This document shows, in pieces, positions 31,723 through 47,444 of a stretch of DNA of 64,000 bases. A model generated the notes under the pieces. The model worked only from the letters and a program-made list of their open reading frames with translations, made no database searches and was not told the origin of the DNA. The stretch is from positions 124,001 to 188,000 of the forward strand of contig NZ_FOSK01000011.1 of the NCBI RefSeq assembly GCF_900114245.1, given 5' to 3'. Within the stretch, counting starts at the first letter, position 1. The number at the start of each line of letters is the position of its first letter. The position numbers and the translations under genes are program-made. The DNA is from Pseudovibrio ascidiaceicola. Lineage in GTDB: Bacteria; Pseudomonadota; Alphaproteobacteria; Rhizobiales; Stappiaceae.

Positions 31723-32307
31723 ATGGAAGAACTCTCAGATGATTGGGATCGTCAGTACGAGGCAGGCCGTTGGCATTTTCTGAATGATATCAAAGAAGCA
31801 GCTCGCTACGGAATCCTCTCCGCGTGGCTAGGGCAGACAGGAACCACGCGGGCAGTACTTGATGTCGGCTGTGGTGAAGCAATTTTGTATCACTATCTCA
31901 AATCATCAGGCCTGCAACGATACTGTGGTGTAGACCTCTCAGAAATTGCTCTAGGCAACGCTAATGTGGCAGAGGAATGTGTGCAGCTTGTGCAGTCTGA
32001 CCTTGAGAGTTTCAACGTTAAAACGGCGGATAAATTTTCAGCAATTGTCTTCAATGAAGTGCTCTATTTCTGCGAGGAACCAGAGTTACAGCTCAACCGT
32101 TACGCAAAATTTCTTGAAGACAATGGCGTTATCGCAATCTCCATGTACACACCTGCACGAGAAAAATCGGGAGCAAACAGATCTATCCAGAAGGTTTGGA
32201 GTGAAACAGACAAATCTGACCACTGGAAGGTGCTAGATGATTTGGAGCTGAAGTCATGTTCAAAGAATGTCGGTTGGAAACTCCGGCTCGTCAGACCTGT
32301 CCGTTAG
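31723..32307 (+). CDS. Small SAM-dependent methyltransferase (NodS-like)
   Basis: The 194-residue protein has SAM motif I VLDVGCGEAILY (residues 45-56) and the acidic motif II CGVDLSEIAL, followed by IVFNEVLYFCEEP in motif IV position. In size and motifs it resembles NodS-type methyltransferases that methylate amino-sugar or small-molecule substrates, but the substrate here is unknown. It follows the permease by 17 bases on the same strand, so it may belong to that operon. Its 3' end overlaps the 3' end of the convergent deacetylase gene by 17 bases, so it also borders the glycan gene cluster. Confidence 0.85.
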   Translation: MEELSDDWDRQYEAGRWHFLNDIKEAARYGILSAWLGQTGTTRAVLDVGCGEAILYHYLKSSGLQRYCGVDLSEIALGNANVAEECVQLVQSDLESFNVKTADKFSAIVFNEVLYFCEEPELQLNRYAKFLEDNGVIAISMYTPAREKSGANRSIQKVWSETDKSDHWKVLDDLELKSCSKNVGWKLRLVRPVR

Positions 32308-33142
32308 CCAAAGTAAAATCGCGTTTTGCCTCATCCAGAAGGTCTTGAGAACTAAGCCACCTAACTGCGGGGTGAGCAGAGGTGAGCTTGAAAAATACCT
32401 CCAAAAATTCAGAGCACCCCTCACCGTGGTCAAGGTGATGTGTCAGTAATCCAATCGGCTCACTTGTATTGGTTCGCCGTCGGCAAAGCTGCAGGTCTAG
32501 CCGTCTACGAGCTGCATCCCAACCGATAAAGCGCTTGTTTTTCTTCCATTTAATGATGTCGATATGGCTTTGGAGACGTGGAAGGCGAAAATGATTGATC
32601 CAGGTGAATGCGGATAATCCGTAGTCTCCTTGTTGCCTGAGAAGTTGCACTGCACGCGGTGCAATCCGGTTCCACGGAGGCACAAATAAAGGCACAAAGT
32701 GCTTTCCAAATAAATTTTGTAGGATCACCCGACCTTCTGCTAATTCTTTTGCCATCTCTTTTGATGTTCGTCGCCACCCAAACTCACTGGCCTTCTCGCC
32801 GTACGATTTCATCTGATAATTCTTGTGTTGCCAACCATGATGAACGATATGAACCTCTTGCGCCGTGACAAGACGCTGGGCGAGTGCTTCTGTCGCAAAT
32901 TTTGGAATAACGGCAAGCGAAAGCGGAATACCGAACTGGCCAGAGAACGCAAGTAGCTCTTCAAGTGCAGGTGTTGGCGAAACAGCGTCATCATCCCGCC
33001 ACCAGAACTTCACTGTAAGGCCGCGCTCTTCGAACCAATTGAGGTGCTGGCTGAGGTGCTGTTCAAATGCCTCTTGATCGTTGCCAGCAATATATCCTGT
33101 CTCCGGAACAGACTTAATGACAGGGGCAGAACTAGAGATCAC
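32291..33142 (-). CDS. Polysaccharide deacetylase-like protein (CE4-type fold)
   Basis: I chose the GTG at 33142 because AAAGGAA lies about 8 bases upstream and the start then overlaps the preceding glycosyltransferase by 11 bases, as is usual in this operon. This gives 283 residues. The likely metal site is a WWRDDD motif (Asp50-52) and HGWQH in HHGWQHKNY (His spacing as in the CE4 HxxxH motif). A segment with FVPPWNRIAP fits the family substrate-binding arm. Members remove acetyl groups from amino-sugar polymers or related glycans. It is the last gene of the glycan operon and overlaps the convergent methyltransferase by 17 bases. Confidence 0.8.
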   Translation of the reverse strand: MISSSAPVIKSVPETGYIAGNDQEAFEQHLSQHLNWFEERGLTVKFWWRDDDAVSPTPALEELLAFSGQFGIPLSLAVIPKFATEALAQRLVTAQEVHIVHHGWQHKNYQMKSYGEKASEFGWRRTSKEMAKELAEGRVILQNLFGKHFVPLFVPPWNRIAPRAVQLLRQQGDYGLSAFTWINHFRLPRLQSHIDIIKWKKNKRFIGWDAARRRLDLQLCRRRTNTSEPIGLLTHHLDHGEGCSEFLEVFFKLTSAHPAVRWLSSQDLLDEAKRDFTLANGQV

Positions 33143-34334
33143 GAGAAACGTTCCTTTCCCAGATAATTCCGAGCGCGTGATCCATCGGCGTTTCCATGCC
33201 AAGATCTGCGGCCAGCACCTGAGCTGAAATCTCCGCCCCATTGAGTGCCACATGTAAATCTGGGGCGGGAAGGGAGAGTGCTTTTTGTGCTGCTTGTGCA
33301 AGCGTATTAGCACTAAGCACTTTTTCGGGAACGGCGACGGCTCGATGATGTTTCATAAGGCTGAGTGCGCGTTGTGTCTGTTCGGTCTCAGCTTCTTGCG
33401 CAAAAGGAACAAGAACGGATGGAATGCCTGCGCGTAGAATATCGACAACCGTGTTGTAACCAGCTTGAGAAATGGAAAGTTTGGCGTTCTTTAGAAGCGC
33501 GGGGAAGTCTTTGCGAGCTCGCTCAATAATGAGCTGTGATGAGGAGTGTTTGGAAAGCTGGCGGAACTCAGCGTCGGGAACGTCCTGTCCAACGAGCACG
33601 CGCCACCGGTGACTGATGTTGGGCGACATATGGTTGGGAGCAGAAAGCGCGGCCCGTAACAAAGCAGAACCGACAGCCCCACCTCCACATGAAACGATAA
33701 TTTCGTCCACCCCGTCAGTTGACGTTGCAGATGTTGTACGGTCATCACTGATGTAACCCGTGTAGCGGATATGTGAGTTCACCTTGTTGGAGAATGGAAA
33801 ACTCTCGTCAAACGTAATGAGTTGCGGGTCTGAATGGACAAGGATCCGGTCATAAAAGGCAGAGGCTTGTGAAGCCATCCATTCTTCTTTCCAAAGCTCG
33901 TCCTTGCGCACCAGAATATCACGCACGGAGCAAACGACCCACGGTGGGGTGAGCTTGCTACCAGCGCACTCAAGAAGACGCGTCATCTCAGCTGCAAACA
34001 TCCTGCGCCCAAACGGGTAGGTTTCCGTGATCAGCAGGTCAAAATGCTCGGAGGAAAAAGCAGAAAGCGTAGCCGTGATGCGCTTTTCCCACCAGGCTTC
34101 ATCAATCGGGTTATTATGTTCGTCCAGCAAAACATCAAACTTCGCGCTGGCAGCACGCACAGCAGGTAACCGGACAACAGAAAGGCCATCGCAATTAAGC
34201 GTGTCAGGAATACGGTTCCCAGTTGCCAGTGTCACTGCAATGCCTTGACGAACCAGCGCCTTGGCGAGCGCCACAGCCCGAACGATATGGCCCGAGCCAA
34301 GCAAATGCTGAACATGGATGAAGGCTTTCATCAT
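33132..34334 (-). CDS. MurG-like glycosyltransferase (COG4671 type)
   Basis: The 400-residue protein has an N-terminal GT-B Rossmann domain with the HLLGSGHIVRAVALAKAL segment, which resembles the MurG/COG4671 GxGHxxRAxxL motif, and a C-terminal domain with a glycine-rich loop (IIVSCGGGAVGSALLRAAL) and a donor-site segment (LSISQAGYNTVVDILRAGIPSVLVPF) typical of UDP-sugar transferases. There is no signal peptide; it should act at the cytoplasmic face. The acceptor and sugar are unknown. It overlaps both neighbours (4 and 11 bases) in the five-gene operon. It is a distant paralogue of the gene at 36702. Confidence 0.85.
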   Translation of the reverse strand: MMKAFIHVQHLLGSGHIVRAVALAKALVRQGIAVTLATGNRIPDTLNCDGLSVVRLPAVRAASAKFDVLLDEHNNPIDEAWWEKRITATLSAFSSEHFDLLITETYPFGRRMFAAEMTRLLECAGSKLTPPWVVCSVRDILVRKDELWKEEWMASQASAFYDRILVHSDPQLITFDESFPFSNKVNSHIRYTGYISDDRTTSATSTDGVDEIIVSCGGGAVGSALLRAALSAPNHMSPNISHRWRVLVGQDVPDAEFRQLSKHSSSQLIIERARKDFPALLKNAKLSISQAGYNTVVDILRAGIPSVLVPFAQEAETEQTQRALSLMKHHRAVAVPEKVLSANTLAQAAQKALSLPAPDLHVALNGAEISAQVLAADLGMETPMDHALGIIWERNVSRDL

Positions 34335-35461
34335 CGGCCTCCGTGAACTCTCCGCTTAAACTGGTGATGTTCAAGAGCAGCATTGAGCACCCTGTCCAGC
34401 CCTCTTGCTCCAGCTTCAAGACTATGGTTTTTGTGAATGTTCTCTATGGCTGCAAGGCCCATATTCTCGCGCTTGTGTGTGTTTTTTATGAGAGACATTA
34501 GGTTCTGAGCCAAAGCAGAGGCGTCGCCTTCATCTGAAAGCAATCCACTGGTGCCTTCCTCCACGATGTCAGGCACACCAAACACCCGCCCGCCAACCAC
34601 CGGTAGACCGCAGGATTGAGCTTCCAGAAACACAAAGCCGAAGGCCTCACGAATGGCAGGCCAAACAAAAATGTCGTGAGACCGATAGAGACGCGGCATT
34701 TCCTGCCATGGAATAAGCCCGACAAACTCGGTGCGTTCCCGATCAAACAGCGGTTCAATCTCGCCTCGTGCCGGTCCGTCTCCGGCAATGGTCAGTCGCC
34801 ATGGCAGATCAGCAATTTGCTTGAGAGCAGCAGCTAGCACCATGTACGAAAACTGCTTGTCTCCTTCACGCATCATGCCTGCGCAAAGCAGTCGGATCTT
34901 TCCATCAGCCGAGCCCTTGGTGACACTGTGACTGACTTCAAATTTTGCCGTCTCCAAAAACGGAGGCAAAACCGTGAGAACGTCTTCATTCAAGACTTCC
35001 TTCAGGCATTGAGCATCAGATTTCGTCAGAGCGACGACTTGGCTGGCCTGAGCAAGAGCTGCATCAGCTGCATTGAACCCAAGAGCCCAATTGCCTGCCT
35101 GTCGTTTGGGCGCACGGCTGGCTTCCACGACCACATAAGGAATGTTGAACTTGGCGCAGAGATAGGGCCCAATCCAATCAGGTGCCTTGTGATAGAGATG
35201 ATACGTGAGAAATACATCGGGCACGTCACTGTGTTCAATCCAGCGCTCGGCGATTGCTTTCGCCTCTGCAAGCGCAAGCTCTTTCACGTCGCGTGTCACG
35301 TCCTCACCACCTTCAGCGCGCCAGCTGCGAAAAGTGGAGGCAATCTCAACCTCGTGCCCCGCCAAATGCAATGCTCGTACGATCAATCGCCCCATGGTTC
35401 GGTCTCCCGAAGGCACAGGGTGGTCAATAGGCTTCATGGGCGCTGTAAAGGCGACTTTCAT
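34331..35461 (-). CDS. Family 4 glycosyltransferase
   Basis: The 376-residue protein starts MKVAFTAPMKPIDHP with the glycine-containing N-terminal acceptor domain and carries the GT4 donor-domain motif EAFGFVFLEAQSCGLPVV near residue 275. The E-x7-E catalytic/nucleotide-sugar motif is intact (EAFGFVFLE). A segment IRLLCAGMMREGDKQF starts the C-terminal Rossmann domain. It is a cytoplasmic GT-B enzyme using an activated sugar. It overlaps its upstream neighbour by one base and its downstream neighbour by four, so it is translationally coupled within the operon. Confidence 0.88.
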   Translation of the reverse strand: MKVAFTAPMKPIDHPVPSGDRTMGRLIVRALHLAGHEVEIASTFRSWRAEGGEDVTRDVKELALAEAKAIAERWIEHSDVPDVFLTYHLYHKAPDWIGPYLCAKFNIPYVVVEASRAPKRQAGNWALGFNAADAALAQASQVVALTKSDAQCLKEVLNEDVLTVLPPFLETAKFEVSHSVTKGSADGKIRLLCAGMMREGDKQFSYMVLAAALKQIADLPWRLTIAGDGPARGEIEPLFDRERTEFVGLIPWQEMPRLYRSHDIFVWPAIREAFGFVFLEAQSCGLPVVGGRVFGVPDIVEEGTSGLLSDEGDASALAQNLMSLIKNTHKRENMGLAAIENIHKNHSLEAGARGLDRVLNAALEHHQFKRRVHGGR

Positions 35462-36699
35462 CAGCAGGGCTCCAAACTTCTCGAGAACTTCTCCTCCAGA
35501 AAATCCAAACCGGGCGAGGCACTGAACCGGCGATGAACGCTTTCAAATGCATTGGTTCCAATGCGCTCTCGCTCAGAAGGGTGTGTGATCAGAAGCTGCA
35601 GTGCCTCTGATAAGGCTGAGATGTCTTCAGCAGGGCAAAGAAGGCCAGTTTCATTACTTTCAATGATCTCAGGAAGAGCAGATACCTCTGTTGAAATACA
35701 CGGCAACGCCATAGCTTGTGCTTCCATCACCACGTTCGGTAGACCGTCCCGGTCACCTGACTTTGAGACACGGCAGGCAAGAGCGAAAATATCGGCGTTT
35801 CCCATCTCTTCCAACACCAGCTTCCTCGGTTGGGCTCCCAGCCACGATATACGGTCATCCAAACCAAGTTGCACACCAAGGTCCTTGAGTGAACATGACA
35901 GCTCACCTCCACCAATGTGGGTGAAGTGCCAGTTCAGGTCCTTTGGAAGTTTGCTGAAAGCGTGCAGCAAGTTGTCATAACCCTTCTTGTCTACCAGTCG
36001 CCCGACGGAGATAATCCGAACGCCATCTGCTCCTGTTCCATCCCGTAACGTGGCAGGACGGGGAGCCTCAGGAAATCCGCAAAAATCGAGACCATGATAA
36101 ACAAGACTGATTTTGTCAGGTTCCTTGCAAAGTGAACGCAGATAAACAAGGTTTGCTTTGGTGCAGGTTACTCCCCAGGCAGCATCAGTAAGTTTTGCCT
36201 CAAGCTCCCATCGCTCCGTGGTCCATATGTCTTTTGCATGGGCGGAAAACGACCAGCGACGATCAGAAAGCAAAGCTGCATAGCGTGCAACCGTGCAAGG
36301 ACTGTGGAGGTAGTGCGTGTGTATCCAAATCACATCCTCTGGCAACTCATGAGCCATCACGCAAGCTTGCCCCCATCGGCGGAAGCGTTCAGCATTTTTT
36401 TTGTGTTTCAGATCGTTCTCAAAGCATGCTCTGGCGGATGCGTATGTCGGTTGTTTTTTCGCCCATGCCATAGCTTTCTGGACACGAGGAGGATCATCCT
36501 TGAGATACTCGGTAAGGTAAAGCACATCGGAAGTGATCTTTTCGTGGACGTCATGCACATAGGGATCATAAGGGTGACGCAGCGCAACAATGAGCTGACC
36601 TATCCCACGCTCCTGTAGGCCATAAATCTCTTGGGCAATAAAGGTCTCGGAAAGACGGGGATACCCTTTAACAACCACAGCAATGCGTCCAGCTTCCAT
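35461..36699 (-). CDS. Family 4 glycosyltransferase
   Basis: The 412-residue protein resembles the colanic-acid/exopolysaccharide type of GT4 enzymes (N-terminal KGYPRLSETFIAQEI, a marker of the WcaL/EpsD-like group). The C-terminal donor domain has the segment ISVGRLVDKKGYDNLL and the motif DGLPNVVMEAQAMALPCIST, with an EAQA... type donor site in which the first Glu of E-x7-E is replaced by Asp (D-G-L-P-N-V-V-M-E). Such a change is common in this subgroup. It begins two bases after the upstream transferase gene. Role: adding a hexose to a lipid-linked or nucleotide-linked glycan is likely, by family. Confidence 0.88.
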   Translation of the reverse strand: MEAGRIAVVVKGYPRLSETFIAQEIYGLQERGIGQLIVALRHPYDPYVHDVHEKITSDVLYLTEYLKDDPPRVQKAMAWAKKQPTYASARACFENDLKHKKNAERFRRWGQACVMAHELPEDVIWIHTHYLHSPCTVARYAALLSDRRWSFSAHAKDIWTTERWELEAKLTDAAWGVTCTKANLVYLRSLCKEPDKISLVYHGLDFCGFPEAPRPATLRDGTGADGVRIISVGRLVDKKGYDNLLHAFSKLPKDLNWHFTHIGGGELSCSLKDLGVQLGLDDRISWLGAQPRKLVLEEMGNADIFALACRVSKSGDRDGLPNVVMEAQAMALPCISTEVSALPEIIESNETGLLCPAEDISALSEALQLLITHPSERERIGTNAFESVHRRFSASPGLDFLEEKFSRSLEPC

Positions 36700-36701
36700 C
36701 G

Positions 36702-37943
36702 TTACCCCGCATTATATGTGAGTTTGACATCGCCACGTGAACCAAGACGTTGTGATAGCTGCTGCTCACGCATGCCAAGAATCTCAGCAGTTCGCAGATT
36801 GATAATATCCAATCCGCCCAGATAGTTTTCTGAATGGGCGTGAGATGGCGGTGCGATAAACGGAAGGTTCGCCAATGCTTTCACCATCAGCTCAACACTT
36901 GGGTATGAGTCAATCGGAAGCATCTGCGCAAGGCCCAGTCGCTGGGCTTGCTCTGCTCGAATAGCCTGCTCTCTGCGTGGCACCACACGTGGAACCAGAA
37001 GGGCTGGATTATCAAAGGAGAGGATCTCGCAAAACGTGTTGTATCCCCCCATGCCGATCACTGCAGTTGCATTGGCCATGTAAGGTTCAATTTCGGGGGT
37101 AAATCGCAGGATCTCAACATCCCGTAAATGAGATGCACGCGTTGAAAACGCTTCCACATCTGCCTTGCTCATGAAGGGGCCAAGGACAATGAGAGCTGGG
37201 AATAAGGGGCGCAAACGTGCCTCATAGGCCCGTATGACCCAATCGACAAGCTCAACACCGTCACCGCCACCGCCCGGGGTCACCAATACATAAGGGGCAC
37301 CATCAAAGGGCGCTGTGAAATCCTGAGCTGAACTTGGCATTGACCGGCGCAGGTAGCCAGTAAAGAGTGTCTTTTCAATCACAGACTGGTCAAAGCCAAG
37401 CCCATCCAATGGATTGTTCATCACTGAAGGGCCGTAAACCCAGATCTCATCATAAAGATCATTAAGGGCAGGGTAGGCGCGTTTGCGAAGCCACTCCTCC
37501 TTCAGAACGTGCGGGTCATCCATCACGTCACGAAGACCCAAAACCAGCCGCGTTTTTTGCCCCTTGAGGTATTGAAGCGAAGGCAAAACTTCGCCGCGCA
37601 GCCCAAGTGGCTCCTTATCGACGATGAAGATGTCAGGCTTAAACACCTTGGCTGTGTGCTCGATGATCGAAGATCGGATGGCGATCGTCTCGTTGATATC
37701 AAGCTGTAGCGACAGCGAAGTGTATTCACCACTGCGTAGTTTGATCACGCCCGGAATACGGACAAAGTCGACCCGAGAGCGAAACTCAAAACTACCAATG
37801 ATGGGAGATCCTGAAAGGATGAGGACGGACATTTCCGGGAAGGAGCCAACCAAAGATTGTGCGATTGTGCGGCACCGCCGCAGATGGCCCAATCCAAAGG
37901 TGTCATGGCTATAAATCAGAATTTTTGGCGTCATTACCGTCAT
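36702..37943 (-). CDS. MurG-like glycosyltransferase (COG4671 type), first gene of the glycan operon
   Basis: I chose the ATG at 37943 (MTVMTPKILIYSHD), with AAGAAG just upstream, giving 413 residues. The frame is open to 38012, but that extension is basic and lacks the fold. The N-terminal domain has YSHDTFGLGHLRRCRTIAQSL, the characteristic GLGHxRR motif, and the C-terminal domain has LVTPGGGGDGVELVDWVI and AVIGMGGYNTFCEILSF. It matches the COG4671 predicted glycosyltransferase group. It is the promoter-proximal gene of a run of five genes on the minus strand and lies divergent from the ABC transporter-like gene at 38191. Confidence 0.87.
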   Translation of the reverse strand: MTVMTPKILIYSHDTFGLGHLRRCRTIAQSLVGSFPEMSVLILSGSPIIGSFEFRSRVDFVRIPGVIKLRSGEYTSLSLQLDINETIAIRSSIIEHTAKVFKPDIFIVDKEPLGLRGEVLPSLQYLKGQKTRLVLGLRDVMDDPHVLKEEWLRKRAYPALNDLYDEIWVYGPSVMNNPLDGLGFDQSVIEKTLFTGYLRRSMPSSAQDFTAPFDGAPYVLVTPGGGGDGVELVDWVIRAYEARLRPLFPALIVLGPFMSKADVEAFSTRASHLRDVEILRFTPEIEPYMANATAVIGMGGYNTFCEILSFDNPALLVPRVVPRREQAIRAEQAQRLGLAQMLPIDSYPSVELMVKALANLPFIAPPSHAHSENYLGGLDIINLRTAEILGMREQQLSQRLGSRGDVKLTYNAG

Positions 37944-38190
37944 GCGCTTCTTATTCCATCTGCTGCGCATAAACCTCAGCATCAGATCAGTTTGGCGGAG
38001 GAGGGCCACCAATCAACGGTCAAACCTGCTTTGTTGCGTTTAAACGCCAAAGTAGTACCCCCATAAATCCAAGGGATCTGGCGGGTTTATGCCGTTTTTT
38101 AAGATCTTGAAGCGTAAGATTCCCTTGCGTCAGTTAGAGCGTAAATCGCATCGCCTTAGTTTGGGTTAGCCTGATCTGAGCTTAATCGGA
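37944..38190. other. Divergent intergenic control region
   Basis: These 247 bases separate the first glycosyltransferase gene (minus) from the ABC transporter-like gene (plus) and must hold both promoters. I see no coding capacity, no strong terminator and no confident promoter. A short GATCT/AGATC inverted repeat flanks a T-rich stretch near 38080-38107. Confidence 0.4.
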
Positions 38191-40788
38191 GTGGACATGG
38201 AAAAATCGCTTTTCCAATTCATCTGGAAGAACTCATCCCGCTATCAAGTGGCGATTCTTCTAGTCACCATATTGTCCTATCCGGTGAGTTACATCCTGCT
38301 GGATCTACCTAAGACAATTACCAATGAAGCAATTCAGGGTAGCAATTTCCCAGTAGAACTTTTCGGAGTGCAACTCGGGCAGATTCAGTATCTGGCGGTG
38401 CTGTGTATTTTGTTTTTGGTTCTTGTTGTTGTTAGCAACTGCATCAAACTCTACCTCAATGTCTACAAGGGTAGACTGGGTGAGAGGATGCTACGCCAGT
38501 TGCGGTTTGAGCTGTTTCAGCGCGTACTTCGCTTCCGCCTGCCTCACTTTAAGAAGGTCAGCTCCGGCGAGATCATACCAATGATTACCGCCGAGGTCGA
38601 GGATGTTGGTGGTTTTGTTGGCGAGGCCTTCGCTTTGCCTGCCTATCAGGGCGGCATGCTAGTCGTTCAGGTCGGCTTTATTTTCATGCAGGACCCGCTG
38701 CTTGGGCTGGCCGCAATCTCCCTTTACCCGGTGCAGGGATACATCATTCCCAAGCTTCAGCAGAAGGTGGTTCGCCTGTCTCGCCAGCGTGTGAAGAATG
38801 TGCGCGTGATCGCTGACAAGGTTGGAGAGAGCATCTCCGGTATCTCCGAGATTCATAGCAACGACACCTCGGCGTGGCACTCGGCAGACCTCTCAGATAG
38901 GCTTTATCGGAACTTCCGCATCCGCTTTGATATCTACAATCGCAAGTATTTCATCAAGTTCGTCAATAACTTCATGAACCAACTGACGCCGTTTTTCTTC
39001 TACTTTATCGGTGGCTATCTGGTCATCAAAGGACAGCTCAGCATCGGTGCGCTGATCGCGGTGATTGCAGCCTACAAGGATCTGGCAGGTCCATGGAAAG
39101 AGCTGTTGGCCTACTACCAGATGACGGCGGATGTTTCAGTCAAATACCAGACGGTGGTTGAGAACTTCGATCCACCTGATCTTTACGACAAACAACGCCT
39201 GCTTGATGATGAATCTCTGGTACTCAAAGGCCCTCTCACATTAGACAAACTCGGGCTTTCAGGAGTAGGGACCGGGCAGGAAGTACATGGCGTTTCACTT
39301 AAGGTTGAACCGGGTAAACCACTAGCCATATCTGGTGTGGACGGTTCTGGGCGTGCTGAACTATTGCAGATGGCAGCTGGATTGCTGAGCCCCACGTCAG
39401 GGTCGGTCAGCGTCAACCAAACCAGTTTTGAGAACATGTCGGAGTCCACGCTAGGCCGGCAGATCGCTTATGTTGGTGGACACTTGCATGTCTGGACTGG
39501 GACAATTCGTGATAATCTGTTCTATGGGTTGCGTCACCGACCTCAGGAAAAGGTCGAGTACGAAGGCAGTGATTTGAGAAAGCGGCAGCGCCAGTTGAAA
39601 GAAGCTGCAATGACGCTAAACCCATATTTTGATTTGAAAGCGCGTTGGGAAGATTACGAGTTGGCCGATGCCGGTTCCATGCAGGAGTTGGAAGACAAGG
39701 CCCTCGAGCTTTGTAAACTCGCAGGTTTCTCGCGTGATCTTTATCTTTTGGGTGTCGAGACAGTTATAAACCCAACCGAGACAGAAGAACTCAATGGCGG
39801 CCTCATGCCCAAACTGGTTGAGGCGCGCAAAGCTTTGCGTGAGAAAATCCAGAATGATGTGAAACTCCAGAACCTCGTCGAGTTCTGGGACCCAGAAAAA
39901 TTCAACATGTCCGCCAATTTGGCGCAAAACCTGTTCTTTGCTAGCCCCAAAGAACACTTCATGACCATTGAGCATGTCCCGAATGACCCGCAGATTTCAG
40001 CTTTTCTAAAAGAGACCGGCTTCGATGTTCTCCTGACGGACATCGGACTGCAAATTGCGAAGACCATGGTCGAGCTGTTTGCTGATGTGAGTGCAGACAG
40101 TGAGTTGTTGAACAGGTACTCCTTCATTAGCCGTGAGGATCTGCCGGAATTCGCCCGCATAGTGAATGAGCAAAAAGGCGAACAGCGGCGTAAACGGCTC
40201 AAAGATGTAGACCGGGCTCGTTTGATTGCATTGGCACTCAAACTCATCCCTGCCAAACACCGTCTTGGTGTTCTGGATGATGATATGCGCGATAAGGTCG
40301 TCGCAGCGCGAGCAAAATTCATGGAAACAGTGGGCAGAGACAATGAGCGGTTCGAGTTCTTCGATCCAGACACCTATCTCACCACGCTGAGCATCGAGGA
40401 CAATCTGGTCTTCGGTCATGCAAGGTTGGATCGCAGAGATGCCCGACAGAAAATACAACAAGTCCTGCAAGAGCTTGTGCGAGAGCGAGACCTGATCGGC
40501 CCAATCCGCCGTGCTGCCTTTGACTATCAGGTGGGCGTTGCTGGGGCGAAGTTATCCTCCCATCAGCGCAGATTGATCTGTTTGGTTCGTGCTCTGTTGA
40601 AAAATGCGCACATCTACGTTCTGGATGAGACTGCAAACAGCGTGAGCGAAACGGATAAGACCCTGCGCGAAGACCTCAGGAAGCTCATGTCTGATAAAAT
40701 TCTCATGTTTGGAGTAAGTAATGAAAGCGTTGCTGAGGAGTTTTCTACGACGGTTCACCTAGAAAATGGGAGGGTTATCGAAAGATAG
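38191..40788 (+). CDS. ABC exporter-like protein with degenerate, internally expanded ATPase domain
   Basis: The 865-residue protein starts with a six-helix ABC exporter membrane domain (residues 1-320). The ATPase domain is abnormal. Walker A reads GVDGSGRA (382-389), with the usual Lys replaced by Arg and the following Ser/Thr by Ala. The Q-loop Gln is absent (YVGGHLHVW). A weak signature LNGGL sits at 534-538. About 250 extra residues follow before the last helical subdomain, in which the signature is LSSHQ (788-792), Walker B is IYVLDE (808-813, Asp812 and Glu813 kept) and the H-loop His is missing (SNES). The xNLxF motif recurs at 441-445, 580-583 and 738-741, which suggests duplication of the helical subdomain. 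ATP hydrolysis is doubtful. It is divergent from the glycan operon. Confidence 0.85.
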   Translation: MDMEKSLFQFIWKNSSRYQVAILLVTILSYPVSYILLDLPKTITNEAIQGSNFPVELFGVQLGQIQYLAVLCILFLVLVVVSNCIKLYLNVYKGRLGERMLRQLRFELFQRVLRFRLPHFKKVSSGEIIPMITAEVEDVGGFVGEAFALPAYQGGMLVVQVGFIFMQDPLLGLAAISLYPVQGYIIPKLQQKVVRLSRQRVKNVRVIADKVGESISGISEIHSNDTSAWHSADLSDRLYRNFRIRFDIYNRKYFIKFVNNFMNQLTPFFFYFIGGYLVIKGQLSIGALIAVIAAYKDLAGPWKELLAYYQMTADVSVKYQTVVENFDPPDLYDKQRLLDDESLVLKGPLTLDKLGLSGVGTGQEVHGVSLKVEPGKPLAISGVDGSGRAELLQMAAGLLSPTSGSVSVNQTSFENMSESTLGRQIAYVGGHLHVWTGTIRDNLFYGLRHRPQEKVEYEGSDLRKRQRQLKEAAMTLNPYFDLKARWEDYELADAGSMQELEDKALELCKLAGFSRDLYLLGVETVINPTETEELNGGLMPKLVEARKALREKIQNDVKLQNLVEFWDPEKFNMSANLAQNLFFASPKEHFMTIEHVPNDPQISAFLKETGFDVLLTDIGLQIAKTMVELFADVSADSELLNRYSFISREDLPEFARIVNEQKGEQRRKRLKDVDRARLIALALKLIPAKHRLGVLDDDMRDKVVAARAKFMETVGRDNERFEFFDPDTYLTTLSIEDNLVFGHARLDRRDARQKIQQVLQELVRERDLIGPIRRAAFDYQVGVAGAKLSSHQRRLICLVRALLKNAHIYVLDETANSVSETDKTLREDLRKLMSDKILMFGVSNESVAEEFSTTVHLENGRVIER

Positions 40789-40888: not shown

Positions 40889-41329
40889 GTGACTATTGAT
40901 GCAGAAGTCCAAGCTTTAAGCCGAGTCCCTCTCTTTCAGGGGTTGGAACCAAGCAAACTGCGTCTTCTTGCGTTCATCAGTGATCGCATGGAGTTTCAGG
41001 ATGGAGAGCATTTGTGCCATCAGGGAGATGATGGTGACAGTGCATTTGTTGTCCTTTCCGGTGAAGTTGCTGTGTTTGTTGATGAAAATGAGGTTGCACG
41101 GGTCGGTCAATATGCCATCATTGGCGAAATTGCGATCCTGTGTGATGTCCCAAGAACAGCGACCTTACGGTCAGTGGGGACAACTCACATTTTGGCAATA
41201 TCAAAAGACGATTTTTTGAAGCTCATCGCAGAGTTTCCGAAAGTTTCACTCGAGATTATGCGTGTATTGGCGTTGCGATTGGAAAAAACGACCAGAGAAC
41301 TTGCGCAGGCACGCCCTGCGTCCACTTGA
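40889..41329 (+). CDS. Stand-alone cyclic-nucleotide-binding domain protein
   Basis: The 146-residue protein is a single cNMP-binding domain with no DNA-binding helix-turn-helix and no catalytic domain. The beta-roll starts at about residue 10 (SRVPLFQGLEPSKL). The phosphate-binding cassette GEIAILCDVPRTATL (residues 79-93) keeps Gly79, Glu80 and Arg89, so cAMP or cGMP binding is plausible. The C-terminal helix ends in a short polar tail. It starts with GTG preceded by GGGAG and lies 100 bases after the ABC-like gene and 13 bases before the metallohydrolase. It probably acts as a regulatory subunit for a neighbour. Confidence 0.87.
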   Translation: MTIDAEVQALSRVPLFQGLEPSKLRLLAFISDRMEFQDGEHLCHQGDDGDSAFVVLSGEVAVFVDENEVARVGQYAIIGEIAILCDVPRTATLRSVGTTHILAISKDDFLKLIAEFPKVSLEIMRVLALRLEKTTRELAQARPAST

Positions 41330-41342
41330 AAGGCCGGATTAC

Positions 41343-42164
41343 TTGAACGAGTTTTCGCTTAAAATTTGGGGTGTTCGCGGTTCAACAGCTGCAGCTGGTC
41401 CCGAAACTCTTAGATATGGCGGAGAAACAACCTGCTTCGAAGTTCGGGCGGGGGATGTTCTGTTGATGGTTGATTGTGGTTCTGGCGCTCGGAACCTTGG
41501 CAGCGAAATGATGAAGGGTAAAAACCGAGATATCGACCTGCTCTTCACCCACACGCATCTGGATCATATCTGCGGTCTTCCTTTCTTCGAACCTGCCTAT
41601 GACCCAAGCTTCCGTATTAATGCCATGGCCGGCCATTTTAATGACCCGTGTGATTTGAAGGACATTATCTGTCGGATCATGTCACCCCCTATTTTCCCGG
41701 TAGGGGCGAACACGCTAAGTGCTGTTTCCTTTAAAAGTTTCAAGGCAGGGGACACCCTGAAGAAAGACAATGGGCTGATAATCAAAACTGTTGCGCTAAA
41801 CCATCCTGGCGGTGCCTGTGGCTACCGGATGGAGTTCAATGGTAAGTCCATGTGCATTATCACAGATCACGAAATGGGGAGCGAATCTCACGATGCAGCT
41901 GTCCTAGAGTTTATCCGTGATGCAGATGTTGTGATCCAGGATGGGATGTACACCTGTGCCGAATACCCTAAGTATAAGGGTTGGGGACATTCCACATGGG
42001 AGCATGTGGTCGGAATATGCCAGCGCGCCAACGTGAAAACGCCCGTGATTTTTCATCACGATCCGCGTCGCACGGATGATGAACTGGACGAGATAGGTTT
42101 GGCTGCCCAGCAGATGCATCCACGAGCAATCGTGGCCTCTGAAGGGATGGTGTTCAAACCTTAA
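41343..42164 (+). CDS. Metallo-beta-lactamase-fold hydrolase
   Basis: I chose the TTG at 41343 (product starts LNEFSLKIWGVRGS), with AAAGG about 9 bases upstream; earlier codons overlap the binding-domain gene. This gives 273 residues. The metal site is THTHLDH (His70, His72, Asp74, His75), with His154 (LNHPGG), Asp175 (ITDHE) and His238/239 (FHHDP) as further ligands, so both metal sites look complete. The GVRGS...RYGGETTC opening matches a group of MBL-fold enzymes related to RNase Z, PhnP and class II cyclic phosphodiesterases. Between a cNMP-binding gene and a cyclase gene, cyclic-nucleotide phosphodiesterase is an attractive but unproven role. Confidence 0.85.
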   Translation: MNEFSLKIWGVRGSTAAAGPETLRYGGETTCFEVRAGDVLLMVDCGSGARNLGSEMMKGKNRDIDLLFTHTHLDHICGLPFFEPAYDPSFRINAMAGHFNDPCDLKDIICRIMSPPIFPVGANTLSAVSFKSFKAGDTLKKDNGLIIKTVALNHPGGACGYRMEFNGKSMCIITDHEMGSESHDAAVLEFIRDADVVIQDGMYTCAEYPKYKGWGHSTWEHVVGICQRANVKTPVIFHHDPRRTDDELDEIGLAAQQMHPRAIVASEGMVFKP

Positions 42165-42250: not shown

Positions 42251-43720
42251 GTGGCAGTTGGAAGTGGTCCAGAAAATTCCGATCCTTCAAAAAAGCGTGG
42301 ATCTGAGAAAAAGCCGGATGTGGACTTGAGCGAAAAGTTCCATGGCATCTCTTACCAGAAGAAAGCTGAACCTAACTTCTACCAGCAGCTGAAGCGCGGT
42401 GTTTTAGGGCCAAAAGCTCCGGAAGGGGACTTGCCTTTACGTGTACGTAGTGAAGTAGCGCGTCAGGAAGCGGCTTCTGAGCGACTGATTGGCATTGTCC
42501 AGCTCGGCGTCATCATCTTCTTCGCGGTTCTCTATGCCCTCGCTCCGAGGGCTGAAGGCACAATGGGTTTCAACTTCGTTCCCATCGCCTTTTCTTGTTA
42601 TCTTGTCTTTACGCTCATTCGAATTTACGTCTCTTTCAGGACCATACTGCCGGTCTGGTATCTGGTCTTGTCCATCATGGCAGATGTGGCACTTTTGGTT
42701 GGGCTGATATTCTCCTTCCACATCCAATACGCCCAGCACCCCACCTTCTATCTCAAAGCCCCGACCTTGATGTACTTGTTCCTGTTCATCGCTTTGAGAG
42801 CGCTCCGCTTTGATCCTCGGTATGTAATCCTCACTGGGGTCTTCGGCGCCCTGGGCTGGTTGGGGTTGGTGTTCTACGCTCTGACGTATCAGGGTGGCTC
42901 GACGCTCATCACTCGAAACTACATTGAGTATCTAACAGGCGAAGCGGTTCTCATCGGAGCCGAGCTGGACAAGTTGATCATCATTCTGTCAGTGACAGCG
43001 CTTCTTGCCCTTTCAATCTTTAGAGCTCGCCGTACCTTCTTCTCAGCCATTCGCCAAAAGAATGCGGTGAAAGACTTGAGCCGCTTTTTTACGCCGGAAG
43101 TTGCAAGTTCCATTGTGGAATCTGAAAGCAGGCTCATGGCTGGAACAGGAGAAATCCGGGACGTTGCCATCCTTCTTGTAGACATCCGGTCTTTCACAAA
43201 AACTGCCGCCAAATTGCCGCCAGAGACCACCATGCGTGTTCTGAGTCTCTATCAAAAGAAGGCTGCAAAGGCGATTTTGGGAGAGGGAGGCAAGATCGAC
43301 AAGTTCCTCGGTGATGGTATCCTCGCAACCTTTGGCGCTGTGTCAGACAGCGAAACATATGCGGCCGATGCGCTGCGTGCAGGTGTCGAGCTGGCTCACA
43401 TTCTGGAGGAAGAGTGCGCTGATCTTGAAGCCGCAGGCTGGCCCACAAAGTTTGAAGTTGGTGTAGGTGTGGCAGCAGGACCCGTCAGTGTTGGAGTTGT
43501 TGGAGTACGGGACCGATTGGAGTTCACGGTGATTGGTGACGCTGTAAACCGCGCAGCAAAGCTGGAAGCTGCCAACAAGGTTCAGGGCACCCGGTTCCTG
43601 ACGGATGGTGCAAGTTATTCCATGGCCCTACGACAAGGGTATAAGGGAAACATGATAGATTTAAAGTCTGAGTGTGTTGCGGGAATCAATGGAAAAGTAG
43701 ACCTTGTGGCTTTGGCGTGA
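42251..43720 (+). CDS. Six-helix membrane class III nucleotide cyclase
   Basis: The 489-residue protein has a basic N-terminal tail (about 75 residues), six membrane helices between residues 80 and 258, and a class III cyclase domain from about 300 to 485. Metal-binding aspartates are Asp311 (LLVDIRSFTK) and Asp355 (KFLGDGILATFG). Purine-binding Asp430 and catalytic Asn433 lie in GDAVNRAAKLE. The usual Arg four residues after the Asn is Lys437 here, a variant known in some proteobacterial cyclases. It starts with GTG and lies 86 bases after the metallohydrolase, on the same strand. Product is probably cAMP; cGMP cannot be excluded. The membrane part may sense a lipid or ion. Confidence 0.92.
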   Translation: MAVGSGPENSDPSKKRGSEKKPDVDLSEKFHGISYQKKAEPNFYQQLKRGVLGPKAPEGDLPLRVRSEVARQEAASERLIGIVQLGVIIFFAVLYALAPRAEGTMGFNFVPIAFSCYLVFTLIRIYVSFRTILPVWYLVLSIMADVALLVGLIFSFHIQYAQHPTFYLKAPTLMYLFLFIALRALRFDPRYVILTGVFGALGWLGLVFYALTYQGGSTLITRNYIEYLTGEAVLIGAELDKLIIILSVTALLALSIFRARRTFFSAIRQKNAVKDLSRFFTPEVASSIVESESRLMAGTGEIRDVAILLVDIRSFTKTAAKLPPETTMRVLSLYQKKAAKAILGEGGKIDKFLGDGILATFGAVSDSETYAADALRAGVELAHILEEECADLEAAGWPTKFEVGVGVAAGPVSVGVVGVRDRLEFTVIGDAVNRAAKLEAANKVQGTRFLTDGASYSMALRQGYKGNMIDLKSECVAGINGKVDLVALA

Positions 43721-43831: not shown

Positions 43832-44599
43832 ATGCAACTTAATAAAGAAATTGCAGCCGTTGTAACCGGCGGCTCATCAGGTCTTGGCGCGGCAACCGCA
43901 CGGAAATTGGCTGGCCATGGCGTGAAAGTAACTCTTTTCGACGTAAATGAAGAAGCAGGTAACGCACTGGCACAAGAAATTGGTGCTCAGTTTGTAAAAG
44001 TTGACGTCACAAGCGATGACAGCGTGAAAGCTGGTCTGGATGCAGCTGAAGCAGCGCACGGCCCAACACGCATTCTCGTCAATTGTGCAGGTATCGCACC
44101 TGTTGCAAAAACCACCTCTCGTGGCGAACCGCACCCAATGGATATGTTCCAGACGGTCATTAACGTAAATCTCGTTGGCACGTTCCGCTGTATGTCATTT
44201 GCTGGAACACGCATGGCAAGTCTTGATCCACTGACAGAAGACGGTGAGCGCGGCGTGATCATCTCCACTGCATCTGTGGCGGCATTTGATGGTCAGATTG
44301 GCCAGGCAGCTTACGCGGCGTCCAAAGGCGGCATCGCTGCTTTAACACTGCCTGTTGCACGTGATCTGTCTAAGTCTGGCATTCGTGTAATGACTGTTGC
44401 ACCGGGTATCTTCGAAACTCCAATGCTTCGTGGTCTCTCTCAGGAAGTCCAGGACTCACTTGGTCAGCAGGTGCCGTTCCCGTCTCGTTTGGGTCGCGGT
44501 GATGAATACGCGCAGCTGGTGGAAGCAATTTGCACCAACCCAATGCTGAACGGTGAAACCATCCGCTTGGATGGCGCAATCCGTATGGCTCCGCGCTAA
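43832..44599 (+). CDS. Short-chain dehydrogenase/reductase (HSD10-like)
   Basis: I chose the ATG at 43832 (MQLNKEIAAVVTGG), which has a GGGA ribosome-site-like stretch just upstream; codons before it look non-coding. The 255-residue protein has the NAD(P) motif TGGSSGLG (residues 12-19), NCAGIAP, and the triad Ser148, Tyr161, Lys165 (YAASKGG). Asp38 after the second strand (LFDVNE) favours NAD. The sequence pattern resembles 3-hydroxyacyl-CoA dehydrogenase type 2 (HSD17B10-like) used in short or branched-chain acyl-CoA oxidation. It is followed by a strong hairpin terminator and stands apart from the FAD oxidoreductase pair. Confidence 0.9.
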   Translation: MQLNKEIAAVVTGGSSGLGAATARKLAGHGVKVTLFDVNEEAGNALAQEIGAQFVKVDVTSDDSVKAGLDAAEAAHGPTRILVNCAGIAPVAKTTSRGEPHPMDMFQTVINVNLVGTFRCMSFAGTRMASLDPLTEDGERGVIISTASVAAFDGQIGQAAYAASKGGIAALTLPVARDLSKSGIRVMTVAPGIFETPMLRGLSQEVQDSLGQQVPFPSRLGRGDEYAQLVEAICTNPMLNGETIRLDGAIRMAPR

Positions 44600-44610
44600 G
44601 CAATGTTCTG

Positions 44611-44635
44611 GCCTGAGAGCATTGGGCTCTCAGGC
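44611..44635 (+). terminator. SDR gene terminator
   Basis: GCCTGAGAGC and GCTCTCAGGC form a perfect 10-bp stem with a 5-base loop, 11 bases after the stop. A short T-run (TGGTTTC) follows. Confidence 0.7.
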
Positions 44636-44743
44636 TGGTTTCAGGTTGAGAAACAGCCAGACCTACCAATATGGTCTAATCCAAAGGTCGACTAAGTGCT
44701 TAGGCACTCCCTCGTGCAGTGATATCTTAGTCCTGCTAAGTTC

Positions 44744-44769
44744 ATCGGATTGTAGTTTACAGATCCGAT
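44744..44769 (+). other. Hairpin just upstream of the first FAD oxidoreductase
   Basis: ATCGGATTGTA pairs with TACAGATCCGAT as an 11-bp stem with one bulge. It ends just before the GAGG ribosome site of the oxidoreductase gene. The whole 44600-44783 gap also has repeated CTAAG-like elements. I do not recognise a known riboswitch. Confidence 0.35.
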
Positions 44770-44783
44770 TCCTAGAGGCCTTC

Positions 44784-46124
44784 ATGGCGACCTATACCAG
44801 CTCCACTCCCCAACAGTTTTTCGGCGACCTTCCAGAACAGACTGACGTTCTGATCATTGGCGGTGGCGTGATTGGCACCTGCACAGCTTATTGGCTGGCA
44901 CAAAAGGGTGTGAATGTGACACTCTGCGAAAAAGGCCGCGTTGCTGGTGAGCAGTCGAGCCGCAACTGGGGTTGGGTTCGTCAGCAAGGCAGGGATGCTG
45001 CAGAACTTCCCATATCCATGGAAAGCAGCAGGCTCTGGCAGCAGCTGATGAAGGAGACCGGTAAGGATCTCGGGTTTCGCCAGGAGGGTGTTTATTATCT
45101 GGCAGAAAAAGAAGAGGACCTCAAAAACTACGAGGACTTTCTTGAACTTGCCAAACAGCATCAACTTGACACCAAACTCCTCAGTAAAGACGAAATCTAC
45201 GCCAAAATTCCGGGGCGTGACGGCAAATGGATTGGCGGCATGGTCACACCAAGCGATGGCCGCGCTGAACCATGGATAGCTGTACCTGCGATTGGCCGGG
45301 CGGCTGAACGGAACGGTGCTGTCATTGTTGAAGACTGTGCAGTACGCACGCTGGAATTCGAAGGTGGCAAGCTCACCGGTGCTGTGACCGAGAAAGGTGC
45401 GATCAAAGCAAACCGCGTCTTGATCGCCGCGGGTGCGTGGTCCTCACTCTTTGCGCAAAATCTCGGCGTGTCCATGCCTCAGCTGTGCGTACGGGCAACT
45501 GTAGCTGCGACCAAGGCTGTACCTGATCTTTTCAATGGCAACGCAGCAGACGGCACATTTGCGTTCCGTAAAAGAGTAGATGGCGGCTACACGCTTGCGG
45601 TCAGTGATATTCATGACCACTACATCGGTAAAGACTCATTTCGTCATCTCTTCAAGTGGCTTCCTGCTGTGAAAGCATCCTTCAAAGGCATTTCTTTTGG
45701 CATGAACCCACCCAAAAACTATCCAGATTCATGGGCACATAAACGCCATTGGTCTGGAGATGAGATCACACCGTTTGAAACATGTCGTGTGCTAAACCCT
45801 GATCCAAGCCCGAAAGCTCTCAAACGCATTCAGGCTCGTCTGGTTGACCGCTTCCCACAGCTCAAAGGGCTGCAAATGGAAGAAAGCTGGGCTGGAATGA
45901 TTGATGCAATGCCGGATTTTGTTCCGATCATGGATGAAGTTCCAACGCAAAAGGGCGTGTTTATCGCAACAGGTTTTTCCGGGCATGGGTTCGGTATAGG
46001 GCCAGCTGCTGGGCGCATCATGGCAGATTTGCTCATGGATAAACCCGCGCGCTACGACCTGACGCGCTTCCGTTATTCGCGGTTTTCCGATGGCTCTAAG
46101 ATCGAGCTCGGACCCTTTATCTAA
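44784..46124 (+). CDS. FAD-dependent oxidoreductase (DAO family), tandem copy 1
   Basis: I chose the ATG at 44784 (MATYTSSTPQQFFGD) with GAGG upstream, giving 446 residues. The Rossmann FAD motif is VLIIGGGVIGTCTAYWLAQ (residues 22-40), followed by a conserved NWGWVRQQGRD segment. The C-terminal end has the DAO-family GFSGHGFGIGPAAGR motif. Substrates of this family are amino acids and related amines. There is no signal peptide. It is followed 18 bases later by a close paralogue, so the two form an operon; they share most motifs and even the N-terminal segment STPQQFxGxxPxxTD, which points to a gene duplication. Confidence 0.9.
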   Translation: MATYTSSTPQQFFGDLPEQTDVLIIGGGVIGTCTAYWLAQKGVNVTLCEKGRVAGEQSSRNWGWVRQQGRDAAELPISMESSRLWQQLMKETGKDLGFRQEGVYYLAEKEEDLKNYEDFLELAKQHQLDTKLLSKDEIYAKIPGRDGKWIGGMVTPSDGRAEPWIAVPAIGRAAERNGAVIVEDCAVRTLEFEGGKLTGAVTEKGAIKANRVLIAAGAWSSLFAQNLGVSMPQLCVRATVAATKAVPDLFNGNAADGTFAFRKRVDGGYTLAVSDIHDHYIGKDSFRHLFKWLPAVKASFKGISFGMNPPKNYPDSWAHKRHWSGDEITPFETCRVLNPDPSPKALKRIQARLVDRFPQLKGLQMEESWAGMIDAMPDFVPIMDEVPTQKGVFIATGFSGHGFGIGPAAGRIMADLLMDKPARYDLTRFRYSRFSDGSKIELGPFI

Positions 46125-46142
46125 CCTCCTTGAGTAAGTGAC

Positions 46143-47444
46143 GTGATTTATTCAGAAAATACACCGCAGCAGTTCCATGGAGAACAGCCGCAGGAAACTG
46201 ACGTGCTCATCATCGGCGGCGGCATCATTGGTGTTTGCACTGCGTATTACCTTGCTAAGAAGGGCGTAAGCGTCACCCTTTGCGAAAAGGGGCGTGTTGC
46301 AGGCGAGCAGTCCAGCCGCAATTGGGGCTGGATCCGCCAGCAAGGACGTGATGAACCGGAGATCCCGCTCTCGATTGAAGCACGCTGCCTATGGGCCGAG
46401 CTCAGCAAAGAGACAGAGGAGGACCTCGGCTACAGCGCGACTGGCGTCTACTACCTTGCTGAGAAGCATGAGGACTTGGAAAATTTCGAGAAGTTCGTCG
46501 AGCTTGGCCGGAAATATGATCTCGATACCTGCATGATCTCAAGAGCGCAGGTTCATGAAGACATCAAAGGTAAAGATGGGCGTTGGATTGGCGGAATGCA
46601 TACTGCCAGTGATGGTCGGGCTGAACCCGGACAAGCAACACTCGGCATTGCAAAAGCTGCAGAGCGTCTTGGAGCTGTCATCTGCGAAAACACTGCTGTT
46701 CGTACATTGGTAAAATCTGGCGGTGAAGTCGTTGGTGCTGTCACAGAGCAGGGCGAGATCAAGGCGGGGCAGGTAATGCTGGCAGGTGGGGCATGGTCTT
46801 CTCTATTCGCCGCCAATGCAGGTATTAAACTGCCTCAGCTTTCCGTGGAGCTGACTGTTGCAGCAACGCAAGTCGTGCCGGATGTCTTCCCGGCAAATGC
46901 CTCAGACAACACCTTCGCCATGCGCCGTCGTCAGGATGGTGGCTACACGCTGGCACTCAAGAACAACCAGACCCACCATATCGGTCTGGATTCTTTTAAG
47001 TTCTTGAAAGAATGGCTGCCCAACATGGCCGAAAACTTAAAAGGCACCAGCATCAAGCCGTGGTCTCCCAAAAACTACCCTGACCACTGGATGCAAAAAC
47101 GGCGCTGGACCGGAGCGGACATAACGCCATTTGAAGCCATGCGCGTTCTTAACTCCAAGCCTGATCAGAAAGAGCTGAGAGCTTTAACCGAGGCTCTTGT
47201 CGATCGCTTCCCTCAGCTCAAAGGAACGAAACTGCAATCCGCCTGGGGCGGTCTCATTGATGCTATGCCAGACTTTCTGCCTGTAATCGATAGAGCACCA
47301 AATCAGAACAACCTGCATATCGTGACTGGTTTCTCTGGTCATGGATTTGGTATTGGACCATCCATCGGACGCCTAATGGCAGACGTGCTCATGGGAAAAA
47401 ATGCAGGTCATGATCTCTCCAGTTTTGCCTTTAACCGGTTCTAA
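46143..47444 (+). CDS. FAD-dependent oxidoreductase (DAO family), tandem copy 2
   Basis: The 433-residue paralogue of the preceding protein begins at a GTG 18 bases after the upstream stop. The FAD motif is GGGIIGVCTAYYLAKK (from residue 25) and the NWGWIRQQGRD and GFSGHGFGIGPSIGR motifs match those of copy 1. The proteins differ mainly in the middle domain (residues 70-330) and in the C-terminus, which is 12 residues shorter here, so substrate preference may have diverged. Whether both are active or they form a hetero-oligomer cannot be told. A terminator with five T residues follows at 47514. Confidence 0.88.
   Translation: MIYSENTPQQFHGEQPQETDVLIIGGGIIGVCTAYYLAKKGVSVTLCEKGRVAGEQSSRNWGWIRQQGRDEPEIPLSIEARCLWAELSKETEEDLGYSATGVYYLAEKHEDLENFEKFVELGRKYDLDTCMISRAQVHEDIKGKDGRWIGGMHTASDGRAEPGQATLGIAKAAERLGAVICENTAVRTLVKSGGEVVGAVTEQGEIKAGQVMLAGGAWSSLFAANAGIKLPQLSVELTVAATQVVPDVFPANASDNTFAMRRRQDGGYTLALKNNQTHHIGLDSFKFLKEWLPNMAENLKGTSIKPWSPKNYPDHWMQKRRWTGADITPFEAMRVLNSKPDQKELRALTEALVDRFPQLKGTKLQSAWGGLIDAMPDFLPVIDRAPNQNNLHIVTGFSGHGFGIGPSIGRLMADVLMGKNAGHDLSSFAFNRF

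Follow-up and report, generated by a model that had tools for sequence, protein, structure and literature searches.

A putative pseudo-ATPase ABC exporter with a triplicated Q-loop/helical unit and a cyclic-nucleotide-binding partner in Pseudovibrio ascidiaceicola

Type IV ATP-binding cassette (ABC) exporters such as MsbA, Sav1866 and PCAT1 join an ABC_membrane transmembrane domain (TMD) to a C-terminal nucleotide-binding domain (NBD) in one chain. In known exporters, the Q-loop/helical region of the NBD receives the coupling helices of the TMD. The subject of this report is an 865-residue protein encoded in a 64,000-nucleotide stretch of Pseudovibrio ascidiaceicola DNA (contig NZ_FOSK01000011.1, positions 124,001 to 188,000; hereafter the window). 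The protein shares the one-chain architecture, and its NBD core superposes with a Z score of about 20, but it differs from these exporters in its lost catalytic motifs, a triplicated Q-loop/helical unit and a cyclic-nucleotide (cNMP)-binding partner. Degenerate ATP-site motifs also occur in the type IV heterodimers TM287/288, TmrAB, TAP and MsRv1273c/72c, which differ in having one canonical site and a partner subunit (PMC7756269; PMC12038006). In the family of the window protein, both sides of the site are degraded and one of 114 loci has a partner gene nearby.

ABCG5/ABCG8 is a heterodimer of another ABC class than the type IV exporters, and we know of no comparable repeats in it. Its degenerate site is similar in that the Walker A Lys is replaced by Arg and the signature is changed (PMC7756269). 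HetC of Nostoc, also an exporter, carries a fused PF00027 domain required for function; this domain is N-terminal, a C39 peptidase domain is also present and the ATPase catalytic residue E970 is essential. In vitro, the HetC domain binds guanosine tetraphosphate (ppGpp), and cyclic AMP (cAMP) gave no significant protection (PMC10986499 for all of these statements); the ligand of the window partner is therefore not to be assumed. The window family differs in that its cNMP domain is C-terminal or encoded by a separate gene and its NBD is degraded, and Pfam, consulted for a HetC-like cNMP-PCAT arrangement, shows no peptidase domain in the window protein or in three fused members. Sinorhizobium meliloti MsbA2, an ABC exporter of an uncharacterized polysaccharide, adjoins glycosyltransferase genes (PMC12239276). 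Judged by its neighbors (importer, GT4, methyltransferases, cNMP), the S. meliloti relative of the window protein looks like a different gene. We take MsbA2 to be an ordinary MsbA-like protein elsewhere on pSymB. None of the systems compared joins family-wide ATP-site loss without a neighboring partner, triplicated units and a cNMP partner. We recognized no description of the protein family or locus in the open-licence PMC literature, consulted in part, a statement that does not extend to print at large.

The explanation that we favor, with a probability of roughly 0.55, is that the window protein is a homodimeric pseudo-ATPase of exporter fold, whose triplicated coupling scaffold would be switched by the cNMP partner and whose cargo would be an envelope glycan or glycolipid, or an importer-linked solute. 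It draws on the fold, the triplication, the motif loss, the cNMP partnership and the locus, as read from sequence and a predicted model; from these we infer the absence of ATP hydrolysis, the cNMP switching, the homodimer and the cargo. The protein and its parts are:

38191–40788, forward strand: putative pseudo-ATPase ABC exporter, 865 residues, GTG start; open reading frame (ORF) with Pfam ABC_membrane at residues 64–293 and ABC_tran at 366–477
38191–39165, forward strand: TMD, residues ~1–325, the best-conserved part of the family (Pfam, family alignment)
39334–39357, forward strand: degraded Walker A GVDGSGRA, residues 382–389, with Arg388 (sequence, family alignment)
39457–39531, forward strand: unit 1, Q-loop strand and DNLFYG helix, residues ~423–447, matching the canonical NBD Q-loop region (expectation value, E, 2e-9)
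39532–40338, forward strand: insert, residues ~448–716 (269 residues), between the single Walker A and the single signature/Walker B
39871–40080, forward strand: unit 2, VEFWDPEKF...NLFFA and following helices, residues ~561–630 (E 1.7e-13 to unit 3, 1.5e-6 to unit 1)
40345–40524, forward strand: unit 3, FEFFDPDTY...NLVFG and following helices, residues ~719–778, matching canonical Q-loop to Walker B (E 2e-19)
40552–40566, forward strand: degraded signature LSSHQ, residues 788–792 (family alignment)
40612–40629, forward strand: Walker B IYVLDE, residues 808–813, with Asp812 and Glu813 kept in the window protein (family alignment)

The window protein is predicted to adopt a type IV ABC exporter fold. 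It scores 66.5 bits against PF00664 (the ABC_membrane TMD; cut-off 28) and 62.6 bits against PF00005 (the ABC NBD that follows the TMD; cut-off 25), and an AlphaFold2 model built with 18 aligned sequences is that of a type IV exporter, with a mean predicted local distance difference test score (pLDDT) of 80.8. Confidence over the NBD is ~80–95, dipping to 61–75 near residues 531–540, 631–650 and 661–670. Modeled residues 342–865 superpose on the ComA NBD as one core (221 residues, 2.6 Å, Z 20.2), the outcome of a fold comparison proposed in a preliminary description of this DNA made from the sequence alone. Against TIGR02203, the model for the lipid A flippase MsbA, the score of 148.7 bits falls short of the curated cut-off of 602. 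The nearest named relatives are Pseudovibrio proteins with 93–97% identity, and in the records inspected the family members are annotated as ABC transporter only.

Loss of the ATP-site motifs is family-wide and not isolated to the window gene. The preliminary description had reported Arg388 in Walker A, no Q-loop Gln or H-loop His, an LSSHQ signature and retained Asp812 and Glu813, and all are found at those positions; residues 429–432 read GGHL, and Ser843 stands in place of the H-loop His. An alignment of full-length members (113 rows: the window, 17 of 18 named loci and 95 unnamed loci) extends the degenerate site to the whole family, but Arg388 is not universal, the Walker A Lys position holding Lys in 60 rows and Arg in 45 (105 of 113 together). 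Lys/Arg exchange at this position needs 17 changes on a TMD tree (FastTree); the position therefore drifts. Nor do homologues have a normal Walker A as a rule: the next position keeps Ser/Thr in 13 rows, and Lys and Ser/Thr occur jointly in five. This Ser/Thr and the LSGGQ-type signature are the features chiefly lost. A Gln anywhere in columns 429–432 is present in 27 rows, an LSGGQ-type signature in two, the Walker B Asp in 29, the catalytic Glu in 57 and the H-loop His in 32. Lys, Ser/Thr, Asp and Glu are jointly kept in two rows, and one member, L061, keeps K, T, D, E and H. None of the 113 rows has all seven canonical ATP-site features, one member has five and 16 have none. Lys, Ser/Thr, Gln, His, Asp and Glu are each present in 30 of 30 rows of a control exporter family, made up of an ordinary exporter's 30 best matches in the same class (its own row included; not a random draw), and the signature positions in 29 or 30.

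The Q-loop/helical segment, but not the signature, is tandemly triplicated. The repeated segment spans the Q-loop strand, the ‘ENLxxG’ helix and the helix that follows, with NL motifs starting at residues 442 (NLFY), 580 (NLFF) and 738 (NLVF). Family profiles of the three units (residues 415–560, 555–715 and 712–815) match each other with E values of 1.5e-6 (1–2), 4.9e-6 (1–3) and 1.7e-13 (2–3), whereas the best control values are 0.012 for reversed profiles (nine comparisons), 0.004 for column shuffles (120) and 0.033 for TMD windows (21). Strand and helix are separated by the same 14 residues in all three units of the AlphaFold2 model (E425/H439, E563/H577, E721/H735). Exporters of the same genome supplied a canonical NBD profile, which aligns its Q-loop/ENI region with unit 1 and the same region through the signature and Walker B with unit 3, so that unit 2 is tied in mainly via unit 3. 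With a hidden Markov model of the insert alone, 11 of 27 genomes have a second match just downstream, at the unit 3 site (E 1.4e-8 to 5e-4).

These results bear on the preliminary description in several ways. The extra residues that it saw splitting the ATPase domain are the 269-residue insert, its three xNLxF copies belong to related units, and the insert is accordingly not an unrelated one. The duplicated helical/signature part that it proposed survives as a tandem Q-loop/helical expansion of three units; the signature portion does not, as the LNGGL at residue 534, read as a second signature, is unconserved, with N-G-G falling in a gap in 105 of 113 rows, and is ascribed to chance. The Asn of NLxF is present in 112, 113 and 113 of 113 rows in units 1, 2 and 3, respectively, and Gly742 in all 113. 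The repeated NLxF motif is the best kept of the NBD motifs counted, ahead of every catalytic one.

The catalytic motifs have been lost across the family under purifying selection, in an NBD that is not decaying. The ratio of nonsynonymous to synonymous substitution rates (dN/dS) is 0.055–0.090 for the pseudo-NBD and insert, as given by the window against L040 and L041, and 0.018–0.037 for the TMD; of the three pairs in all, L041 has a dS above 2 outside the TMD and L043 yields no ratio there because of saturation. The mean majority frequency is 0.64 in the TMD and 0.55 in the NBD core, and the TMD value is the higher in 50 of 50 random 30-row subsamples. This order is reversed in the control exporter family (TMD 0.65, NBD 0.74).

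A match below E 1e-70 is present in 96 of 289 Alphaproteobacteria genomes sampled, own genome included. Searched with the insert profile, 27 of the phylum's 349 genomes have a match, each being the own genome or a member of the same family, order or class. A tblastn search of plasmid records gives 344 with a match, at least 80% of the query being covered in 262, and rhizobial replicons also carry the family. L150 is distantly related and has a very long branch. The orthologue in Pseudovibrio denitrificans JCM 12308 (L048 6001–8591) is split over two frames by either an assembly error or a real break, and other Pseudovibrio hold intact copies; this two-piece locus is absent from the 113-row alignment and present in the counts over 114 loci. 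Five TMD-only relatives (L151–L155) have no NBD in ORFs or Pfam scans, L151 having 38% identity over 352 residues. The existence of NBD-less relatives implies that the TMD lineage can do without the motor. Further TMD-only relatives with 37–43% identity are plasmid-borne (L183 11773–13077, L184 9758–10996, L185 7785–8966), in annotated roseobacter plasmid records of low coverage. These three adjoin genes for multicopper oxidases, cupredoxins or a copper P-type ATPase, in copper-resistance operons.

The strongest functional clue is the cNMP-binding partner, which lies beyond the preliminary description. Match counts for glycosyltransferases and cyclases over the 114 loci, here and below, use E 1e-8 within flanks of mostly 7 kb and include cross-matches between related genes. 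The partner gene and a nearby cyclase gene are:

40889–41329, forward strand: cNMP-binding protein, 146 residues, PF00027 (E 3e-19) as its only Pfam domain, no helix-turn-helix
42251–43720, forward strand: class III nucleotide cyclase, PF00211; match in 18 of 114 loci

A cNMP domain is encoded downstream in the same direction, or fused C-terminally, at 107 of 114 loci. This number comprises 102 loci under a strict rule (domain on the same strand and starting no more than 3 kb downstream, or fused; 14 of them fused) and five (L075, L076, L093, L128, L129) in which the domain lies past the family part, in an ORF that overlaps it in a different frame. Three fused members were scanned with Pfam and all contain PF00027, and C-terminal fusion is one change on the tree. 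All 102 aligned loci have the phosphate-cassette Arg, and 93 have the Glu. In S. meliloti, the gene for the partner (L180 11809–12273) is annotated as ‘Crp/Fnr family transcriptional regulator’; its window counterpart has no DNA-binding domain by Pfam. Cyclases resembling that at 42251 score 287–338 bits in 6 of 20 further upstream stretches. In the window, class III nucleotide cyclases at 23549–25426 and 42251–43720 flank the locus and share 28% identity over 189 residues, in the catalytic part only.

The other neighbors are glycosyltransferase (GT) genes, a polysaccharide-deacetylase-like gene, a family-5 importer and a hydrolase gene:

41262–42164, forward strand: metallo-beta-lactamase-fold hydrolase, true start probably later; homologue in the flanks of 15 of 114 loci
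36702–38012, reverse strand: GT28-like glycosyltransferase, the divergent neighbor; match in 82 of 114 loci
35461–36699, reverse strand: GT4 glycosyltransferase; match in 81 of 114 loci
34331–35461, reverse strand: GT4 glycosyltransferase; match in 79 of 114 loci
33132–34334, reverse strand: GT28/MurG-like glycosyltransferase; match in 78 of 114 loci
32291–33313, reverse strand: polysaccharide-deacetylase-like protein, PF01522; match in 63 of 114 loci
25567–27468, forward strand: importer ATPase with two fused NBDs (OppDF/GsiA-like); in 18 of 20 upstream stretches
27465–29381, forward strand: importer substrate-binding protein, family 5, PF00496; in 17 of 20 upstream stretches
29508–30536, forward strand: importer permease, OppB-like; in 18 of 20 upstream stretches
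30533–31705, forward strand: importer permease, OppC-like; in 18 of 20 upstream stretches

At a tblastn threshold of 1e-15, applied to L038–L155 (118 loci, five of them TMD-only), the counts are 78 for GT28, 61 for the deacetylase and 11 for the cyclase. The four-gene family-5 (Opp/Gsi-like) importer is also a neighbor of the relatives in records from S. meliloti, R. leguminosarum and Azospirillum. Elsewhere in the window, two adjacent genes at 44553–47444 encode products that are 60% identical over 431 residues and are presumably FAD-oxidoreductase-like proteins.

In the favored explanation, the NBD would have turned into a pseudo-ATPase that no longer runs the ATP-hydrolysis cycle, with three tandem copies of its Q-loop/helical segment between Walker A and Walker B. 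The role of the pseudo-NBD would be that of a coupling scaffold, by which the highly conserved TMD is held or switched; the switch would be set by the cNMP-binding protein, whether made from the adjacent gene or fused C-terminally. Multiplication of the Q-loop/helical part together with abandoned catalysis is consistent with a scaffold linking the TMD to a non-ATP input, for which the cNMP protein is the obvious candidate. The protein would then probably be a channel or flippase that is switched and not driven by ATP. The cargo would be the product of the adjacent glycosyltransferases or a solute shared with the adjacent importer. More tentatively, and with a chance that we put below even, the protein could be a cyclic-nucleotide-gated ABC exporter that has dropped ATP as fuel and uses the triplicated scaffold, the ligand of the cNMP partner opening or closing the transmembrane path in the manner of a ligand-gated channel or regulated scramblase.

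Several observations weigh against the pseudo-ATPase explanation. The AlphaFold2 model is a monomer, and its TMD has pLDDT below 50 at residues 136–153 and 297–317. The window protein retains Asp812 and Glu813; with the Walker A Lys kept in 60 rows, the Walker B Glu in 57 and five of the seven features in one member, some members may bind or slowly hydrolyze ATP. The match of unit 2 to the canonical NBD is weak (E 1e-3, probability 21%), and helices at ~631–714, beyond the ~60–70 residues of each unit, are unexplained by the repeat. A PDB fold search with the insert folded alone gave no convincing match (45 at E ≤ 10, best 2.1). Sequence matches of the insert are two designed repeat proteins (E 0.005 and 0.07), so a known domain was rejected. 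Folded alone, the insert also has lower confidence (mean 72.9) and its short strands vanish; together with the missing PDB match, this would be expected of an integral part of the NBD, as opposed to a separate appended domain. Seven of 114 loci have no cNMP domain (L107, L110, L112, L117, L122, L123, L150), and a cyclase match is nearby in only 18. A glycolipid or glycan cargo is a guess from the gene neighborhood.

The alternative that survives best, though we consider it unlikely, is a still ATP-driven exporter with unusual working sites, in which ATP would bind, perhaps without the usual Mg ligands, transport would be slow and the repeats would be an elaborated helical subdomain. Degenerate sites of known exporters still bind ATP (PMC7756269), and this alternative would account for the Lys or Arg in 105 of 113 rows, for Asp812 and Glu813 of the window protein and for L061. 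It sits poorly with an LSGGQ-type signature in two rows, Ser/Thr after the Lys in 13 and a Walker B Asp in 29, and with an NBD less conserved than the TMD; a homodimer would moreover have both sites degraded alike.

ABC proteins that are not pumps exist, and the sulfonylurea receptor would be the model for a protein that is no transporter at all but a membrane sensor or regulator, reporting the cNMP or substrate state to the importer or the glycosyltransferases. The cNMP partner and the importer adjoining in 18 of 20 stretches would suit such a role, which we nevertheless find improbable given the strong conservation of the TMD and the NBD-less relatives, three of them in copper-resistance operons, which suggest membrane work of its own. 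Quite improbable, too, is the degenerate half of a heterodimer whose partner, with a working ATP site, is encoded elsewhere. Heterodimers with one degenerate site are well known (PMC7756269; PMC12038006), and the own genome has 15 other ABC_membrane matches, but a chain degraded on its Walker and signature sides would leave neither composite site fully canonical. The fetched flanks contain a second exporter half at a single one of the 114 loci, 94 of which have 4 kb or more on both sides, and this rules out a partner next door. Of the regulated, non-hydrolyzing or asymmetric transporter suggested in the preliminary description, the first two attributes are probable and the asymmetric one is not supported, on the same count. 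The Pycsar anti-phage system was rejected, as PADLOC Pycsar matches cover the cNMP and cyclase domains only, the ABC protein has weak MADS-model matches (E 2e-4, 8e-4), and Pycsar needs a cyclase adjoining a cNMP-sensing TIR/TM effector, whereas 18 of 114 loci have a cyclase match nearby. A decaying pseudogene is ruled out because dN/dS is low and 96 of 289 genomes of the class have the protein.

Roughly one in three of the sampled Alphaproteobacteria carry the protein. Should it neither need nor hydrolyze ATP, it would be a natural experiment on the purpose of the ABC exporter motor and on the working of the Q-loop/coupling-helix interface once multiplied. It would also link cyclic-nucleotide signaling directly to an envelope transporter.

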